Shown here: positions 6,478-54,369 of the stretch, piece after piece
Position numbering within the stretch: position 1 is the first letter of the stretch
Layout: the number at the start of each line of letters is the position of its first letter
Assembly: GCF_963576615.1 (NCBI RefSeq)
Contig: NC_088708.1
Coordinates: 28,713,191 to 28,777,190 of the forward strand
Length of the DNA: 64,000 nt
Direction of reading: 5' to 3'
Source of the DNA: Watersipora subatra
Lineage: Eukaryota; Bryozoa; Gymnolaemata; Cheilostomatida; Watersiporidae
Made by a program: the position numbers and the translations under genes
Notes under the pieces: generated by a model
What the model was told of the DNA's origin: nothing
Database searches by the model: none
Seen by the model: only the letters and a program-made list of their open reading frames with translations

Positions 6478-6725
6478 TGTCCGTGTGTTTGTTTGTCTAA
6501 AGCCACACTAAAAGCATTAGGAAAGAACTACCTCGCACAGGATTCGAACCCCCACACTCCACTTTACAAACTGGCGCTCTAACCACTACACTACTCAGCT
6601 GCTTAAGCACTTCATGAATTATGCATATAGTGATTACACATGACGATCTCTCATGGTGCACAGGACTGCCAAGCATGCTAGTAATGATAAAAATGAAAGT
6701 TACTGATTTATTAGCTAGCCAAAAA
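6478..6725 (-). mobile_element. tRNA-derived SINE-like repeat
   Basis: Read on the - strand it has a polymerase III A box (TAGTGTAGTGGTTAGAGC, about 6578-6595) and a B box (GGTTCGAATCC, 6540-6550), the layout of a tRNA head. It is followed by the family tail with AAACAAACACACGGACAGAC. Related copies lie at 15900-16148, 22780-23010, 36041-36275 and 36723-36873. The + strand side ends in CATGACGATCTCTCATGG, a motif shared by several copies. SINEs are copied by LINE reverse transcriptase; no partner is assigned here. Confidence 0.75.
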
Positions 6726-6976
6726 ATCATAAATACATAAATTATATGGTAAACATGATAAATAATTTAAAAAGTTAATAATTGACTTTTAAACCAGATA
6801 CATATATTGCAGCAGTAAAGTTGTTTGTAAAGCCTTTGCGCAAAGCTCATCACTTTTGTGATTTGAGCACTCTGGTGCCAGCACATTGACTTTTTTAAAG
6901 TCTGTGAAGCAACTTTGTTGTTTCATGGCAGGAAGTCAACTCTCATTGGTAATGGGATTTGTGTCCCTTGCCTAAG

Positions 6977-7033
6977 CTCTGAGCTGCACTGATGAGGCTT
7001 CAATAGCCGAAACAGTACTGTCTGTAGCATGAG
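6977..7033 (+). ncRNA. Hammerhead ribozyme, type I, copy 1 (complete core)
   Basis: Core order as in type I hammerheads: stem I strand GCTGCA (6983-6988), CTGATGA (6989-6995), stem II GGCT/AGCC with a 5-nt loop (6996-7008), GAAA (7009-7012), stem III CAG/CTG with a 2-nt loop closed by the A-T pair, then TC with cleavage after C7022, then stem I strand TGTAGC (7023-7028). Stem I pairs over 6 bp with one G-U. Beyond an internal loop, CTC (6977-6979) pairs with GAG (7031-7033), where tertiary contacts with loop II are usual. Every conserved core base is present. The very short stem III is like that of animal retrozymes, which often cut best as dimers. Confidence 0.9.
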
Positions 7034-7236
7034 TATTATGCTCCCTCACTTCGGTTTGGTTGAGCGCTCTGTGAGAGGTGCGGCACTACTAGCCTTTGCG
7101 CAAAGCTCATCACTTTTGTGATTTGAGCACTCTGGTGCCAGCACATTGACTTTCTTAAAGTCTGTGAAGCAACTTTGTTGTTTCATGGCAGGAAGTCAAC
7201 TCTCATTGGTAATGGGATTTGTGTCCCTTGCCTAAG

Positions 7237-7292
7237 CTCTGAGCTGCACTGATGAGGCTTCAATAGCCAAACAGTACTGTCTGTAGCATGAG
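7237..7292 (+). ncRNA. Hammerhead ribozyme, copy 2, one core base missing
   Basis: Same as copy 1 except that AGCC is followed by AAAC instead of GAAAC: the conserved G after stem II (position 12 of the standard numbering) is absent. That G is needed for catalysis in known hammerheads, so this copy is probably inactive. Predicted cleavage would have been after C7281. Confidence 0.85.
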
Positions 7293-7495
7293 TATTATGC
7301 TCCCTCACTTCGGTTTGGTTGAGCGCTCTGTGAGAGGTGCGGCACTACTAGCCTTTGCGCAAAGCTCATCACTTTTGTGATTTGAGCACTCTGGTGCCAG
7401 CACATTGACTTTCTTAAAGTCTGTGAAGCAACTTTGTTGTTTCATGGCAGGAAGTCAACTCTCATTGGTAATGGGATTTGTGTCCCTTGCCTAAG

Positions 7496-7552
7496 CTCTG
7501 AGCTGCACTGATGAGGCTTCAATAGCCGAAACAGTACTGTCTGTAGCATGAG
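7496..7552 (+). ncRNA. Hammerhead ribozyme, copy 3 (complete core)
   Basis: Identical core to copy 1, with predicted cleavage after C7541. The array ends within a few bases of its stem I, at the start of an (AT) run, so the insertion boundary seems to fall close to the ribozyme. Confidence 0.9.
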
Positions 7553-7553
7553 T

Positions 7554-7554
7554 A

Positions 7555-7585
<31 letters not shown>

Positions 7586-7592
7586 TATATAT
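7554..7592. repeat. (AT)n microsatellite
   Basis: A near-pure AT run directly at the end of the hammerhead array. It could have been the target or have grown at the junction. Confidence 0.9.
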
Positions 7593-8910
7593 ATGGAGTG
7601 CAGCAAGAGAGAGAATGATACTTTAAAGGCTCATTATGGAACTCTCAATATTCAAATCAAATTTGAGAACTTGCACAGACTTGACTCTGCACATTATATA
7701 GAATTTCTAACACAATATGATTCTTACGTAATAATTTCTTACGTAATATGGTGCAAAACTTCACATAAAAGCTTTGCATTCAGTATAATTTATGCAAAAG
7801 GCTTACGTTATAGAAGACTCTACTGTGATGGTTCATATTGATAGTTAGATATATGATTCAGACAGAAGCATTTGACCAAGTCCAACATTTCTGTCTGTAC
7901 ATTTATCTTTATGTGTCTGACTATCAAGATAAACCGGCCTTTAGATCTCAACTAGATGAAGAACCAAAGGAGTTAAAAGGTAGATGAAGCGAGCGTAATC
8001 TTGTGGAAACTGTAAATATCTGTTATTGTTATTATAATAAATTAACTGTATATCATTTTGGTTAACCAATGATTGTTTGTTTTTTTGCTCATCCTCTCTA
8101 ATCATAGTAATATCTACTTTTCATCTCCATACCAACCAAATTCCTCAACAAGGTGGTAATGTATTTCTTAGAAATCAGATAAATTTCAATCATTGTTAGA
8201 TGCAGACAAGCGACGCAAATCAATTTGCACTCGTACCCTATCATGGTGACGTTGTAATCTTGCAATATGTTCATCAGAGGGTGCTGGCTTCAACAGTTAT
8301 GAGTTGGCCCATGGCATAACTAGAAACTGATGCTAATTTCCTCGATCCGCCTGACCTATATAGTCAAGACAGTAAGGTAGGAGAGCTACTGGAACAGATG
8401 GGCTAAAAACTGGGTGAGTTGGAAGAGCGCCAAAATAGAGAGCCTTTGTACTCAGACTGTGTACACTAGTCTGGGTAATAAGTCTTTAGTAATGCCTAAA
8501 GTAACTGTGGCAGAAACATAAATGTAGTATAATATAATATTATATATTATAATTATACTACATTATATATACACTACTACTATATTATAATATATAATAT
8601 TATAATATAATATACATATTCTATGTAAAATAAGAGTGTTGTGAAATAATACACCAAATAGTGCTGCCTCATGATGGCTGACACAAACTACATGAAAATA
8701 TTTTTTTACTGCAAGTTATTCCTTCTATCATAGTCTATAAAAATATTTCTTTCAATTTATTTATTTTTATTACAAGAGTGAGTAAATGAGCATAAATGAG
8801 AATTTAAACCCCCTTTTAAAATGATTCATCGTTTACTTAAAGCTCTATAAATAAAAAACTTAACCCCAATTATATTGATATAACTAGCCCTATCTGAGTT
8901 TCATTGCTTG
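7593..8910. other. Intergenic; AT palindromes at 8525-8625
   Basis: No gene is seen. The start (GCAGCAAGAGAGAGAATGATA) resembles sequence after SINE-like copies near 16715 and 23060. Positions 8525-8625 are alternating AATATTATA runs able to form several hairpins. Confidence 0.4.
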
Positions 8911-11850: not shown

Positions 11851-12104
11851 AAGTGATCATGATTATGCTAAACCATTATATTGTTACATTAAGGCTTCAT
11901 GGGGTTGTTAAAGCCCACCGATCATGAGTTTATGTCAAACTATGTGACGTATCACAAATAAAACTATTTAGCAAAGGTGAAGGTAAAATTATTTTGATTT
12001 ATTTATAATTATTATTATGACTTATTTTTATTTAAATTAAAGATTTATTTTGTATTAGCATTAAGCTTGGCATTGCCTGAGATTTTGCTCATTTTCAAAC
12101 AAAT

Positions 12105-12945
12105 AACTCACAGCATTCTGTAGATAACCCACAGCATTCTGTAGATAACCTACAGCATGCTGTAGATAACCCACAGCACTCTGTAGATAACCCACAGCAT
12201 TCTGTAGATAACCCGCAGCATTCTGTAGATAACCTACAGCATTCTGTAGATAACCTACAGCATTCTGTAGATAACCCACAGCATGCTGTAGATAACCCGC
12301 AGCATTCTGTAAATAACCTACAGCATTCTGTAGATAACCTACAGCATTCTGTAGATAACCCGCAGCATTCTGTAGATAACCCACAGCATTCTGTAGATAA
12401 CCCACAGCATTCTGTAGATAACCCACAGCATTCTGTAGATAACCCACAGCATTCTGTAGATAACCTACAGCATTCTGTAGATAACCCACAGCATGCTGTA
12501 GATAACCCACAGCACTCTGTAGATAACCCACAGCATTCTGTAGATAACCCGCAGCATTCTGTAGATAACCCACAGCACTCTGTAGATAACCCACAGCATT
12601 CTGTAGATAACTCGCAGCATTCTGTAGATAACCCACAGCATTCTGTAGATAACCTACAGCATTCTGTAAATAACCTACAGCATGCTGTAGATAACCTACA
12701 GCATTCTGTAGATAACCTACAGCATTCTGTAGGTAACTCACAGCATTCTGTAGATAACCCACAGGATTCTGTAGATAACCTACAGCATGCTGTAGATAAC
12801 CTACAGCATTCTGTAGATAACCTACAGCATTCTGTAGATAACCCGCAGCATTCTGTAGATAACCCACAGCATTCTGTAGATAACCCACAGCATTCTGTAG
12901 ATAACCCACAGCATTCTGTAGACAACCTGCAGCATGCTGTAGGTT
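12105..12945 (-). repeat. 21-bp minisatellite, about 40 units
   Basis: Units CAGCATTCTGTAGATAACCYA repeat for 840 bp with few changes (mostly C/T/G near the end, and CATTC/CATGC). As 21 is divisible by three, the reverse strand is open in two frames. One of them gives a 315-codon run of a 7-residue unit (YLQNAVG). No signal peptide, non-repeat domain or splice-supported exon goes with it, so I treat it as satellite DNA. Confidence 0.9.
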
Positions 12946-15790: not shown

Positions 15791-16148
15791 CGCACACCTT
15801 CAATGTCAATTTACATGAACTTTAATATTTTTTCTAGACAGCAAGGTCTACTCTGAATAAGAAAAATTATTAAAAACATTTTTTATGTCTAAAATAAAGT
15901 AAAACAAAAATAAATCTTCACTATAATAAGAGCTGTGTTTGTTTGTCTGCTTATCCATCAGTCACCGAGGTTCGAAGTTAGGATAAAATACAGCTTTTGA
16001 CAAGACTCCAACCTGTGACATTCAGTTCAGTATACTGACACTCTAACCTCTGCACCAATTGATCGCCTTTAGTATTTGTGAATAATTATCGCAGCTACTT
16101 ATTCTCTGAGCTTTATCCAAACACCTGACCATCTCTCATGGCAAGCTA
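15791..16148 (-). mobile_element. SINE-like repeat with flanking family sequence
   Basis: On the - strand, an A-box-like TTGGTGCAGAGGTTAGAGTG and a B-box-like CAGGTTGGAGTC precede a tail with CAGACAAACAAACACAGC and TTATTATAGT. The whole 15791-16148 block aligns with 22615-23010, so the repeated unit is larger than the tRNA head. The + strand end CACCTGACCATCTCTCATGG is the same terminal motif as at 6640 and 22980. Confidence 0.65.
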
Positions 16149-16694
16149 GACTGCTAGGGTACTGGTAAATATAGAGATACTCCTATAGACTGCCAGGGTA
16201 CTGGTAAATATAGAGATACTCTTATAGACTGCTAGGGTACTGGTAAATATAGAGATAATCCTATAGACTGCCAGGGTACTGGTAAATATAGAGATAATCC
16301 TATAGACTGCCAGGGTACTGGTAAATATAGAGATAATCCTATAGACTGCCAGGGTACTGGTAAATATAGAGATAATCCTATTGACTGCTAGGGTACTGGT
16401 AAATATAGAGATACTCTTATAGACTGCTAGGGTACTGGTAAATATAGAGATACTCTTATAGACTGCTAGGGTACTGGTAAATATAGAGATACTCTTATAG
16501 ACTGCTAGGGTACTGGTAAATATAGAGATACTCTTATAGACTGCTAGGGTACTGGTAAATATAGAGATACTCTTATAGACTGCTAGGGTACTGGTAAATA
16601 TAGAGATACTCTTATAGACTGCTAGGGTACTGGTAAATATAGAGATACTCTTATAGACTGCTAGGGTACTGGTAAATATAGAGATAATCCTATA
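16149..16694 (-). repeat. 39-bp minisatellite, 14 units
   Basis: Units of the form GACTGCTAGGGTACTGGTAA plus ATATAGAGATACTCTTATA. It seems to have grown from the end of the SINE-associated repeat, whose single-copy form (ACTGCCAGGGTA...) occurs elsewhere. The 186-codon reverse frame is a 13-residue repeat made by this array and is not a gene. Confidence 0.95.
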
Positions 16695-25130: not shown

Positions 25131-25261
25131 GTTATCTGAAATCACCTGACCAGCATTCTCGACCATACTAGAATTTAGTTTTGCGTTAGCGTGGGAGATT
25201 TCTCAGCATAAATTGCTTGATTGTATGACTAATGACTTAAAAAAATAATTCGTAAGCAATC

Positions 25262-27271
25262 ATGGATCAGATATTGGTAGACAGAGAAAACCGACATTTT
25301 AATCCAAACTGGACTACACAATTCTTTTTTTATGAAGTAAAAGGGAAACTTACATGTTTGATATGCAATGAAGCAGTTGCTATAAACAAGGTAGCAAATA
25401 TCAAAAGGCATTACGCTCAAAACCATCCTGACTATGACGGAAGATTTCCTCCAGGGACAGCTAGGAGGCAGGAAAAGCTTGATAGATTAACAAGGCAGGC
25501 TAATGGACAAATGGCTATGATGAGGGGAGCTACAAGCTTGCAACAAAAAGCAGCTACTGCTGGTTATGAGGTTTGTTATAAAATTGCCAAAGCAATGGTT
25601 CCATACAGCAACGGCAATTTGTTCAAAGAATGCATGGTTTCAGCCGTTCAAGCGCTCTACCCTGAAAAGCTAGATATTCAGCAAGCGGTTCGGTCAGTAC
25701 CGCTATCTAGGAATACTACGTGTGCCCGATGGATAGAAGCTATTGCCAATCATTTGACTGAAGGTGTCATATATAACATGAACAGGTGTAAATCATTTTC
25801 AGTTGCAGTAGATGAGAGTACTGACATAAACGATGTTGCTCAGCTGAGTGTGTTTGTTCGGTATTATCTCAACAACAAGTTTAGTGAGGACCTTGCAGCA
25901 GTTATTCCACTGACAGAACGTACGACTGGAGAAAATATATATCTGGCATTCAAGGCTTACATGAGCCCCCCTAAAGTGTCAATGCATAAGATAATTTTTG
26001 TAGCAACAGATGGCTGCCCAGCTATGGTGGGTGTATATTCTGGTTTTGTGAATCGCCTGAAAGATAACAATCCTCAGATGATTGCATTTTATTGTATCAT
26101 ACACAAAAGCATTCTCTGTGCACAAATAAAAGATGAACATGGAAGTCTTAGGCTGGACATAATGAAACTAATAAACTTTCTCAGATCAAAATTATCTCTA
26201 CGACACCGCCAGCTTAGAAAATTTCTACAGGAGTCTGATTCTCAGTATGATGAATTGTTAGTACACAACAATGTCAGGTTAGTACCATATTGCTATCTTT
26301 GAATTATATTTGACATACTTATTTTCATTACATTATGATGAGGTAAAAAAGCACAGCAAAGTTGTGAATATTGTCAATTATTTTTAATATACAATGTACT
26401 TTAATGTACTTTTGCAGATGGCTGAGTAAGGGTAGAGCTTTGCAAAGAGTATGATCTGTAAGATTGCATATTGAGCAGTTTCTTAGTGAGATTGGAGGAG
26501 ATGCAGCAGAAGGATTTTTAGAGATTCTCAGATCGGAGCATTCACTGAGAGATATGGTAAAAAACCTTTTACCATATCTGGCTTTTCTGACAGACATTTT
26601 GGCTCATCTGAATGACCTAAATTTGAAGTTGCAGGACGAAAGTCGTAATGTGGTAGAAGCCTGGCAGGCAGTAACATATTTTAAAGACAAACTCCACTGC
26701 TTTCACGAGGACATAAACAGTGATATGAACCACTTTCCAATCATCAGGGAATTTGTGAATGGTCGTGATGATGTCGAGGACCTTACAACAGCACGCGCTT
26801 TTCTCATTGATGTTTCTTCAGAGATGGAGTGTCGCTTTGCTGCCTTTGATAGTATCAATGGCATTATTGAGCTGGTTGAGTGCCCATTTCAGGCACATCA
26901 GCTTTGGAAAGCCCAAGTTGATAACTTTCCTCATGTTCAGAGAGGTGTGGCAGAATTAGAGCTGTGTGATTTAAAGGCAGATATACTGGCTAAAGCTCAA
27001 TTTGCTGATCAAGCTATGGTAGGGTTCTGAACGCAACTTGCTGTACAGGAGAAGTATCCTATGCAATATGGCAGTGCACTTACTTACTTTCTTTGTTACA
27101 ACCTACTTGTGTGAATCAATGTTTTCTAAGCTGACATTTATAAAAAGTAGGTATCGTAGTGTACTGACAGAGGAACATACTCAACAGCTCTTAGCCGTAG
27201 CAGTAACCAAAGATAAACCAGATACTGCAACAATAGCTGCAAAGCAAACTTGCTTCCATGTGTCTCATTAA
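25262..27271 (+). pseudogene. hAT transposase with BED finger and an intron, interrupted
   Basis: The ATG-led frame encodes a BED-type zinc finger (residues about 31-58, CLIC...RHYAQNH), a catalytic region with SVAVDESTD and FVATDGCPAMVG, and the CIIHKSILC motif. A 140-bp GT-AG intron (26278-26417) joins VR to WLSKGRALQ, restoring the conserved VRWLS of the family. The C-terminal dimerisation region follows (LTFFVTTYLCESMFSKL, then KSRYRSVLTEEH). It resembles the hAT transposases that gave rise to vertebrate ZBED5/SCAND3-type genes. In-frame TGA codons lie at 26452 and 27028, and the reading frame changes near 27060 between EKYP and the dimerisation region. The protein cannot be made whole from this copy. 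Confidence 0.9.
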
Positions 27272-37251: not shown

Positions 37252-37880
37252 TTCCACTTCTGTCTCTAACAAGATTCCACTTCTGTCTCTAACAAGATTC
37301 TACTTCTGTCTCTAACAAGATTCCACTTCTGTCTCTAACAAGATTCTACTTCTGTCTCTAACAAGATTCCACTTCTGTCTCTAACAAGGTTCCACTTCTG
37401 TCTCTAACAAGATTCCACTTCTGTCTCTAACAAGGTTCCACTTCTGTCTCTAACAAGATTCTACTTCTGTCTCTAACAAGATTCCACTTCTGTCTCTAAC
37501 AAGATTCTACTTCTGTCTCTAACAAGATTCCACTTCTGTCTCTAACAAGGTTCCACTTCTGTCTCTAACAAGATTCCACTTCTGTCTCTAACAAGGTTCC
37601 ACTTCTGTCTCTAACAAGGTTCCACTTCTGTCTCTAACAAGGTTCCACTTCTGTCTCTAACAAGATTCCACTTCTGTCTCTAACAAGGTTCCACTTCTGT
37701 CTCTAACAAGGTTCCACTTCTGTCTCTAACAAGATTCCACTTCTGTCTCTAACAAGATTCCACTTCTGTCTCTAACAAGATTCCACTTCTGTCTCTAACA
37801 AGATTCCACTTCTGTCTCTAACAAGATTCCACTTCTGTCTCTAACAAGATTCCACTTCTGTCTCTAACAAGATTCCACTT
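37252..37880 (+). repeat. 23-bp minisatellite, 27 units
   Basis: Units TTCCACTTCTGTCTCTAACA plus AGA or AGG. Pyrimidine-rich strand, almost no divergence apart from C/T and A/G at two sites, so young or actively homogenised. No spacers, so not a CRISPR array. Confidence 0.95.
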
Positions 37881-45591: not shown

Positions 45592-45794
45592 CTGCTATTA
45601 ATTATATTGCTATATTATTAAATTATATAAATAATTTATATAAATTAATAATATAGTATTAAATATATAGTATATATGTAATACTATATACCCTACATAT
45701 ATATAATATAATATATATATAATATATATATATAATATATATATATAATAATATAGTATTACATATATAGTATATATTTAATACTATATACCCT

Positions 45795-45885
<91 letters not shown>
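45592..45885. repeat. TA-rich low complexity and (TA)n, about 85 bp pure
   Basis: A duplicated segment (ATATAGTATTAMATATATAG with CTATATACCCTACAYATATA) is followed by a pure TA run at about 45799-45882. Likely to extrude cruciforms and to vary in length. Confidence 0.95.
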
Positions 45886-50026: not shown

Positions 50027-50085
50027 CTGAAATGTGTCAAAAGTCTAACTATACAGCGTATAGTTAGAGTTTTTAAACATTTCAG
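50027..50085. repeat. Imperfect palindrome, about 28-bp arms
   Basis: CTGAAATGTGTC...CTAACTATAC and GTATAGTTAG...ACATTTCAG around AGC. It ends 58 bp before the ankyrin exon, inside the intron, where it could fold next to the branch-point region. Confidence 0.7.
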
Positions 50086-50143
50086 TTTAAGAAATATAAT
50101 TATACGCCGTCTCACCTTCACTTAATCTTAATGCATTTTACAG

Positions 50144-51333
50144 CTCGCCTACACGAGAGCATGATTGATGGTCGACTACAACACTTTTGCTTTCTCGTCG
50201 ACGCTGGTGGTGTAGACATCAACTATGTCAATAAATCAGGAAAGACACCTCTCATCGCTGCTTGTTATCTGACAGCAAGAAGATCTGTCACCTTGGCCAT
50301 GGTCAGAAAACTACTGCAATCTGGTGCAATCCTCAGCAAAGTCGACCCAATGGGTCAAACAGTCTTACATCACGCAGTTAGTCAATGTAAGTTGCGAATA
50401 TTGGAATTATTGTTGGATACAGCAAGAACGGAGCTAACCATACGAGATGCTAAAGCGAATACGCCTCTACATCTAGCTGTCGAGGCACAAGATCTCAGTC
50501 TAATTCGTAAATTAGTTACACACATGAAAGTCTACCAAATATCTTCTGAGGTCTCTAACAATGACGGACTCACTCCACTTTCCCTCGCCTGTCAAAAGGG
50601 CCGAGTTGACATCGCTCGTTACCTCAGCGCTACTGTTCAACATTCTCCTATGAGATCTGATACAGTCATGCATCGCACTGGGAGGCAATGGTTAGATACT
50701 GTACTCTTTGTGCCCTACGATGTTGACCCATTCACTTGTCCAAATTCAACACTGGTACAGTTGCAACCCAAACCTTGGAACTACATAGAGAATGATTGTA
50801 AAATCAACTGTATCACTTACGATTGGCGCAAGACCATCAGTTCTGGTCTGCTTCAGCTAGAAAAATCTCAGAGATCAAATTCGGCTAGATCTGTTCGTGG
50901 CATTTCACCTCCTGCTTCTTCTCACCAAAGACTAGCTTTATCAGCCTCACACTGTTCAAGCAAATCGCAACGATATCAAAAGCAAAAGATAATTAGAAGC
51001 CAAAAAAGCTACATGCAAATGTTGCCATATTTTATGGAATTGAAAGCGACTTCCACGAGTATTTTGCCAGCCGCTCAACTACCCACTGAAGAAGAGAGAT
51101 CTTTGTCAGAACTAGATGGACTAGAGCTCTGTGACATAAACGTTCCCATCTGCAGATCCAATGATATGCTCAGTTTGTCTCTGTCATTTTCTAGGCCAAG
51201 AAAGTTCCAATTAAGGGAAAAAACTACCAAACAGAAAATATCTACAGTTCAGGAAGCCATATCTGCAACCCACGCTTGGTCAAAGTCGCCCATCAAAAAG
51301 AGAAGATCTGTTAATTGTAACCAATCTAGTTAA
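50144..51333 (+). CDS. Ankyrin-repeat protein, last exon (396 codons)
   Basis: Follows the acceptor TTTTACAG. Residue numbers use the 407-residue form. Five ankyrin repeats occupy about residues 12-175, with the TPLHLA signature visible in KSGKTPLIAACY, GQTVLHHAVSQ, ANTPLHLAVEAQ and GLTPLSLACQKGR. Repeat 2 has a longer first helix region (LTARRSVTLAMVRKLL). The C-terminal 230 residues are serine-rich and unstructured, with basic patches near the end (SPIKKRRS) that could serve as a nuclear signal. No death, kinase, SOCS or membrane domain is seen. Ankyrin repeats bind partner proteins; the partner cannot be inferred. The family member is not recognised. A polyadenylation signal lies 107 bp downstream. 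The ATG at 50131 is intronic if the splice is used. Confidence 0.85.
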
Positions 51334-52664: not shown

Positions 52665-54362
52665 CTGCCATAGACAAGTAGTTGGAGTAGACAGACACAC
52701 TGCCATAGACAAGTAGTTAGAGTAGACAGACACACTGCCATAGACAAGCAGTTGGAGTAGACAGACACACTGCCATAGACAAGTAGTTAGAGTAGGCAGA
52801 CCCACTGCCATAGACAAGTAGTTAGAGTAGACAGACACACTGCCATAGACAAGTAGTTGGAGTAGACAGACACACTGCCATAGACAAGTAGCTAGAGTAG
52901 ACAGACACACTGCCATGGACAAGTAGTTGGAGTAGACAGACACACTGCCATAGACAAGTAGTCAGAGTAGACAGACACACTGCCATGGACAAGCAGTTGG
53001 AGTAGACAGACACACTGCCATAGACAAGTAGTTGGAGTAGACAGACACACTGCCATAGACAAGCAGTTGGAGTAGACAGACACACTACCATACACAAGTA
53101 GTTGGAGTAGACAGACACACTGCCATAGACAAGTAGTTAGAGTAGGCAGACCCACTGCCATAGACAAGTAGTTGGAGTAGACAGACACACTGCCATAGAC
53201 AAGTAGTTGGAGTAGGTAGACCCACTGCCATGGACAAGTAGTTAGAGTAGACAGACACACTGCCATAGACAAGTAGTTGGAGTAGACAGACACACTGCCA
53301 TAGACAAGTAGCTAGAGTAGACAGACACACTGCCATGGACAAGTAGTTGGAGTAGACAGACACACTGCCATGGACAAGTAGTTGGAGTAGGTAGACCCAC
53401 TGCCATAGACAAGTAGTTGGAGTAGACAGACACACTGCCGTAGACAAGCAGTTGGAGTAGACAGACACACTGCCATACACAAGTAGTTGGAGTACACAGA
53501 CACACTGCCATGGACAAGTAGTTGGAGTAGACAGACACACTGCCATGGACAAGTAGTTGGAGTAGACAGACACACTGTCATGGACAAGTAGTTGGAGTAG
53601 GTAGACCCAATGCCATAGACAATCAGTTGGAGTAGACAGACACACTGCCATAGACAAGTAGTTGGAGTAGACAGACACACTGCCATGGACAAGTAGTTGG
53701 AGTAGACAGACACACTGCCATGGACAAGTAGTTGGAGTAGGTAGACCCACTGCCATGGACAAGTAGTTGGAGTAGACAGACGCACTGCCATAGACAAGTA
53801 GTTGGAGTAGACAGACACACTGCCTTGGACAAGCAGTTGGAGTAGACAGACACACTGCCATAAACAAGTAGTTGGAGTAGACAAACACACTGCCATGGAC
53901 AAGTAGTTGGAGTAGACAGACGCACTGCCATGGACAAGCAGTTGGAGTAGACAGACACACTGCCTTGGACAAGCAGTTGGAGTAGACAGACACACTGCCA
54001 TAGACAAGTAGTTGGAGTAGACAGACACACTGCCATGGACAAGTAGTTGGAGTAGACAGACACACTGCCTTGGACAAGCAGTTGGAGTAGACAGACACAC
54101 TGCCATAGACAAGTAGTTGGAGTAGACAGACACACTGCCATGGACAAGCAGTTGGAGTAGACAGACACACTGCCATAGACAAGTAGTTGGAGTAGACAGA
54201 CACACTGCCATGGACAAGCAGTTGGAGTAGACAGACACACTGCCATAGACAAGTAGTTGGAGTAGACAGACACACTGCCATGGACAAGCAGTTGGAGTAG
54301 ACAGACACACTGCCATAGACAAGTAGTTGGAGTAGACAGACACACTGCCATGGACAAGCAAT
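52665..54362 (-). repeat. 35-bp minisatellite, about 48 units
   Basis: Units TGCCATAGACAAGTAGTTGG plus AGTAGACAGACACAC. Variants (CATAG/CATGG, AGTAG/AGCAG, AGACAGACA/GGTAGACCC) are arranged in higher-order groups, for example alternate CATAG-AAGTAG and CATGG-AAGCAG units near 54080-54340. The reverse strand lacks stops in all three frames, giving frames up to 407 codons with a 35-residue period. No start context, domain or splice sites point to a protein. Confidence 0.97.
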
Positions 54363-54369
54363 TGGAGTG

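Follow-up and report, generated by a model that had tools for sequence, protein, structure and literature searches.

Previous studies described animal non-LTR retrozymes in Acropora, Mytilus and axolotl as units of ~170-400 nt with a G+C content below 50% and a type I hammerhead, present as tandem copies from dimers up, without LTR and with a self-paired unit RNA; in axolotl, stem III is short and built around a palindromic tetraloop (PMC7229834, in the excerpts on which our comparisons with this and the other cited papers are based). The hammerhead satellites of newts and salamanders likewise combine the type I fold, a weak palindromic stem III and tandem repetition, with repeats of ~330 bp (PMC7229834). 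Plant LTR retrozymes are also non-autonomous, processed by hammerheads and associated with a circular RNA intermediate, but their hammerheads are of type III and lie in LTRs, their circles have 600-800 nt and their insertion produces 4-bp target duplications (PMC7229834, PMC7761336). A different group, the Penelope-like elements, exemplified by PAc of Anolis (PMC11167929) and rotifer Penelope (PMC3846280), shows a hammerhead near the 3' terminus, an internal start of reverse transcription, AT-rich targets, tandem and inverted copies and an optional 3' tail. Unlike a retrozyme array, however, these elements encode a reverse transcriptase and an endonuclease (PMC11167929). The return of retrozyme circles to DNA is presented in the excerpted reviews as proposed rather than demonstrated (PMC7229834, PMC7761336): it has been suggested that circles are copied by LINE or Penelope-like enzymes, either target-primed or primed by small RNAs (PMC7229834), and Penelope-like elements and Terminons have been named as the likely enzyme source (PMC7761336).

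The array studied here, which lies in a 64-kb window (the whole stretch of DNA that was analysed), resembles the animal non-LTR retrozymes in unit size, base composition, hammerhead type, tandem arrangement and RNA folding, and resembles the amphibian repeats in its palindromic stem III, although it differs from them in that this stem has 3 bp and a strand forming a 10-nt palindrome. The likeness is one of description rather than of unit alignment, and our evidence comes from sequence, whereas circular RNA was shown for the published family (PMC7229834).

The array and its hammerhead ribozymes

An earlier note on this DNA had claimed a tandem array with a unit of ~260 bp, and both a reading of the bases and Tandem Repeats Finder (6831-7558, period 259, 2.8 copies, 99% matches) confirm it (Table 1). 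The unit has a G+C content of 46.5% and there is no LTR, the array not being flanked by any other repeat. As RNA, the 259-nt unit is more stable than its shuffled versions (z = -4.1, with 0 of 200 shuffles as stable) and is therefore strongly self-paired, while folding of the hammerhead piece alone (81 nt) is unremarkable (z = -1.1, 35 of 200 shuffles as stable).

Table 1. Coordinates of the array, its ribozymes and the adjoining tract in the window
Feature	Position	Strand	Basis
Retrozyme array (260-bp unit, 2.8 copies)	6831..7554	+	bases, Tandem Repeats Finder, assembly search
Unit copy 1, 260 bp	6831..7090	+	bases; query for assembly search
Unit copy 2, 259 bp, hammerhead without G12	7091..7349	+	bases, array alignments
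Unit copy 3, partial, 205 bp, end 13 nt beyond its own cleavage site	7350..7554	+	
Hammerhead 1, stem I to stem I, predicted cleavage C7022^T7023, core letters all present	6983..7028	+	
Hammerhead 2, cleavage site C7281^T7282, without G of GAAA, expected inactive	7243..7287	+	15.4 bits
Hammerhead 3, predicted cleavage C7541^T7542, core letters all present	7502..7547	+	
ACAGTACTGT, stem III strand, 10-nt palindrome	7531..7540, likewise 7012-7021, 7271-7280	+	
TATTATG inside copy 1, just outside stem I (unit 204-210); where annealing to the RNA circle and the start are proposed	7034..7040	+	sequence, junction position
Expected released RNA, 519-nt dimer, assuming cleavage by ribozymes 1 and 3 but not by 2	7023..7541	+	inference
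TA repeat directly adjoining the 3' end of the element proper, target tract	7555..7594	.	bases, Tandem Repeats Finder

By eye, the hammerhead has a 6-bp stem I with one G-U pair (GCUGCA/UGUAGC), the core letters CUGAUGA and GAAA, stem II formed by GGCU/AGCC and stem III formed by ACA/UGU with the loop GUAC, and cleavage is predicted after GUC. The type I hammerhead is complete in copies 1 and 3; copy 2 reads AGCC-AAAC and has lost G12, the first letter of GAAA. In stem III, the strand ACAGUACUGU forms a palindrome of 10 nt and two ribozymes could therefore pair, as reported for amphibian retrozymes (PMC7229834). The full conserved core in two of three copies, the wobble-containing 6-bp stem I, the 4-bp stem II, the minimal stem III and the three cleavage positions were all read here as the earlier note had given them. 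Its spacing of one unit between cleavage sites also stands, but the ~260-nt product that it expected from this locus does not, given the absence of G12 from copy 2. Because ribozyme 2 is broken, the window array, judged by its bases, should release a 519-nt dimer and not ~260-nt monomers.

A purpose-written type I descriptor, run on both strands of the 64-kb window, gave two matches, both inside the array. In 60 sequences of 64 kb simulated with a first-order Markov model, the same descriptor found 0 hammerheads, which rules out a chance hammerhead. The earlier note had also pointed to the hammerhead covariance model as a check, and here the outcome was divided: Rfam at its curated gathering cut-offs returned nothing across the window, and the search below the cut-off (52 bits) placed Hammerhead_HH9 in all three copies, with 22.8 bits (E = 0.006), 21.2 bits (E = 0.019) and 15.4 bits (E = 1.4).

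When copy 1 was used as a query against the assembly that contains the window (784 Mb, 239 contigs), at least 148 matches were obtained, a lower bound biased to copies near the query, as 40 of 1355 candidates were scored. The unit is thus not unique to this locus, contrary to one of the outcomes that would have spoken against the reading of the earlier note. The matches listed resolve into 42 arrays, all of which were read with their flanks. Five arrays at duplicated sites, recognized by the similarity of their flanks (L024, L026, L027, L029 and L044), were left out, as was a diverged plus-strand piece of L019. The remaining 37 independent arrays occupy 35 loci (L016 and L037 have two apiece), are spread over at least 10 contigs and measure 1.03-6.75 units. 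Within the family arrays, 105 of the 115 copies that span the hammerhead keep all checked core letters, the ribozyme has a minor-allele fraction of 0.48% vs 1.73% outside it, and at least two intact ribozymes are retained in 32/37 arrays. Dispersed units, tandem copies without LTR, a short stem III, self-paired RNA and a conserved core support the assignment of the array to the animal non-LTR retrozymes, a known kind that every testable feature appears to fit; the retrozyme reading of the earlier note is upheld in this respect, its word animal being plausible. The piece left out of L019, seen also in L055 and in L020 (2412-2541), is a relative ~82% identical to the unit with a damaged core; it, too, ends at unit 206 and represents an earlier wave that shares this 3' end.

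Array ends, TA tracts and neighbouring retroelements

Alignment placed the 3' end within unit positions 205-209 in 34/37 arrays (206 in 32, 205 in one and 209 in one), although the exact last base is ambiguous because TA follows. The array with its end at 209 is the window copy, whose sequence departs from the unit after 205. Since the cleavage site corresponds to unit 192/193, the arrays extend 11-14 nt beyond it and end at CATGAGTA, immediately outside stem I. The outlying ends, at 195, 202 and 258 in one array each, speak against the circle model considered below, and the array ending at 258 (L043) continues into the next unit and then into an A-run. A TA run of at least 10 is found immediately 3' of 33/37 arrays, compared with 0.22% per position in the control; within 60 bp, such a run occurs on the 3' side of 35/37 arrays, on the 5' side of 32/37 and on both sides of 30/37, against 0.8% in the control. 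This control consisted of 103 kb, namely the window minus the array and 20 arbitrary 2-kb stretches.

The 5' ends, in contrast to this fixed 3' end, are scattered over the unit. Three of the 37 fall exactly at the cleavage site (193; P = 4e-4) and nine in unit 193-209 (P = 5e-4), and the surplus at 199-209 may reflect microhomology with TA. In animal non-LTR retrozymes, target-site duplications, where present, are longer than 4 bp; at L041, ATTAATTATATATAT is present on both flanks, and a target duplication is indistinguishable inside TA repeats. The insertion pattern, in which arrays stop at a constant internal position within TA tracts, is what is new here: the excerpts of PMC7229834 make no mention of it, and no TA-targeted retrozyme was found in the titles and abstract openings of the literature searched. 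Because the copy stops just outside stem I, an inserted array ends with a complete ribozyme, and this terminal ribozyme in each insertion suggests a reason for the layout.

Further type I hammerheads, unlike that of the retrozyme, were detected beside the arrays by the descriptor and then aligned. They fall in five families and sit in the 3' parts of elements whose protein motifs are Penelope-like. We take the neighbouring ORFs to code for a Penelope-like protein on the basis of putative reverse transcriptase and GIY-YIG endonuclease motifs read by eye, and the name rests on these motifs since searches of Pfam, NCBIfam and PDB gave no match to the protein; a search for its relatives in viral contigs gave none. 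In 9 of the 11 Penelope-like pieces listed, a TA run lies 41-247 nt after the end of protein homology, the exceptions being L020 (324 nt) and an internal piece of L014 (8 nt). Family A has two 3' termini ~78 nt apart, ~47 and ~125 nt beyond its own cleavage site, with the short form in three places and the long form in three; one short terminus (L049) is followed by ATATAT only. These alternative ends are similar to the optional tail of Penelope-like elements (PMC3846280; PMC11167929, as excerpted). Penelope-like 3' regions were also seen as inverted pairs in L018, L020, L040 and L049.

A LINE ends in the same kind of tract: at 7/7 sites read, TA repeats begin right behind its 3' end or a few T later. 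The LINE piece had a weak zf-RVT match (E = 0.0011, below the cut-off). Across one TA tract, the retrozyme 3' end faces a Penelope-like 3' end at L013, L018, L025 and L040 and a LINE 3' end at L002, L004 and L049. After masking of the arrays, the 35 loci (56 kb) contained LINE in 9, Penelope-like protein in 6 and other hammerheads in 6, compared with 1, 1 and 0, respectively, in 21 control sequences (103 kb). Matches of the 3' region queries consisting of TA or T-rich sequence only, for example at 45794-45830 of the window, were disregarded. The single control locus behind these counts, L067, holds a Penelope-like ORF, and in it a Penelope-like 3' region and the LINE lie on either side of TA repeats; this is the only unbiased case because the other flanks were selected for containing retrozymes. 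As Penelope-like elements and LINE both end in TA tracts, these results narrow the donor of the enzyme rather than prove it. A Penelope-like enzyme would come first and a LINE enzyme second, since an enzyme of the former kind cleaves AT-rich DNA and initiates internally when assayed in vitro, according to the excerpts of PMC11167929, and since Penelope-like elements have hammerheads and the landing site in common with the retrozyme; against this order, the LINE was seen at more loci.

Haplotypes, proposed mechanism and rival explanations

The copies within an array are essentially of a single haplotype. At 13 diagnostic sites, chosen for varying among arrays, 24/1657 comparisons (1.4%) were discordant within arrays and 19957/71696 (27.8%) between them, and the median distance over all sites was 1.1% within and 2.4% between arrays (41 arrays, 861 pairs). 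The seven copies of L039 form a single haplotype, which is shared by L050. Last copies differ on average by 0.75% from their own array and by 2.1% from the last copies of other arrays, and these mean distances, together with the diagnostic sites, favour one template per array. A nearest-neighbour test of the template, which omitted three arrays with last copies short or none usable, found 8/34 last copies nearer to their own array and 12/34 nearer to the last copy of another, with 14 ties. A single haplotype per array is predicted by the copying of one circular monomer, and also by a transcript from a homogeneous array.

The best reading of the data is target-primed reverse transcription of a circular monomer, with an internal start, at TA microsatellites, and we estimate a probability of about two in three that the window array represents a young non-LTR retrozyme copy of the animal type, produced by TA-nick-primed copying of an RNA circle over several turns. 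The transcription, cleavage, circle, annealing, repeated turns and donor enzyme are steps that we infer as follows. Type I hammerheads would cut array transcripts into ~260-nt monomers, and these would be closed into circles, as in the published family. A retrotransposon enzyme would nick the TA tract, and the freed TA end could anneal just outside stem I, with UAUUAU in the 260-nt subfamily or UAUAU in the 259-nt subfamily. Reverse transcription would start at the annealed end, 11-14 nt beyond the cleavage site, and would go from one to about seven turns round the circle until drop-off or, alternatively, until it reaches the terminus of a circle that has opened again at the cleavage site. The resulting array is expected to have a constant 3' end and a variable 5' end, to consist of identical copies and to finish with a complete ribozyme. 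The annealing of UAUUAU to TA would distinguish the retrozyme from the Penelope-like PAc system, whose start site in vitro shows no homology with the DNA that is cut (PMC11167929, as excerpted), a difference that counts against the model.

A more specific form of the mechanism is proposed tentatively, at somewhat less than even odds: a Penelope-like enzyme would load the circles near stem I, UAUUAU would anneal to nicked TA, several turns would follow, and at least three kinds of retroelement, namely the retrozyme, a LINE and several Penelope-like families with hammerheads, would have the TA tracts as their common landing site. If this is true, the junctions in the chromosomes are by themselves a record of an RNA circle copied round and round at its target. 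A constant start inside the unit, a defined target and multimers of one haplotype reduce the published proposal to one testable reaction that comprises one RNA circle, one TA duplex and one of two candidate enzymes.

The nearly constant 3' junction and the homogeneity inside arrays could also arise if an existing array is transcribed as a linear multimer that continues into the TA tail of that array and the resulting UA tail anneals to a TA target, so that the junction is inherited with neither a circle nor an internal start. The three 5' ends on the cleavage site are compatible with such a transcript, as if the multimer had been cut at its 5' end. However, an RNA with one hammerhead per unit should cut itself to monomers, and no variant was seen to recur by rank in the array. 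The 3' flanks, moreover, vary by site, some being imperfect TA common to the 5' flank (L041), and because they differ between sites the TA tail is local. We consider this alternative unlikely, and the copying of a circle is still preferred. Ordinary satellite DNA, shaped by unequal exchange and carrying a fossil hammerhead, would agree with the different unit numbers at duplicated sites (3.39 in L018 and 5.39 in L029; 2.79 in L025, 2.79 in L026 and 1.79 in L027), from which it follows that arrays grow or shrink in place. Satellite DNA is nevertheless highly improbable as an origin for short arrays at 37 sites dispersed on at least 10 contigs, with a constant 3' end inside TA tracts and a ribozyme more conserved than the rest of the unit.

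The array could instead be a piece of a Penelope-like terminal repeat and not a separate element, given that such elements of this genome contain type I hammerheads and terminate in TA. This is scarcely credible, as six 3' region queries had no match to the unit in the loci or the window, TA junctions aside, and the unit recurs as closed 260-bp multimers. An origin from a viroid-like RNA agent that is occasionally copied into DNA would be consistent with a small self-paired RNA with a hammerhead, but the descriptor found no hammerhead on the opposite strand of the array, and the many genomic arrays under ribozyme constraint make such an agent hardly believable as well.

Other features of the window

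A tRNA-derived-looking repeat lies on the minus strand at 6530-6605, ~230 bp before the array, and was recognized by eye from its GGTTCGAATCC box; ARAGORN reported no tRNA in the window. Two ORF pieces at 25256-27030, the first of which contains a Spin-doc zinc finger (PF18658, E = 3e-8), are presumably the remnant of a hAT-like transposase. Long minisatellites with periods of 21, 39, 23 and 35, reported by Tandem Repeats Finder, occupy 12103-12942, 16147-16694, 37252-37880 and 52665-54368, respectively, the 35-bp repeat reaching 48.7 copies, and a 418-aa ankyrin-repeat ORF (PF12796, E = 6e-21) is located at 50077-51333.
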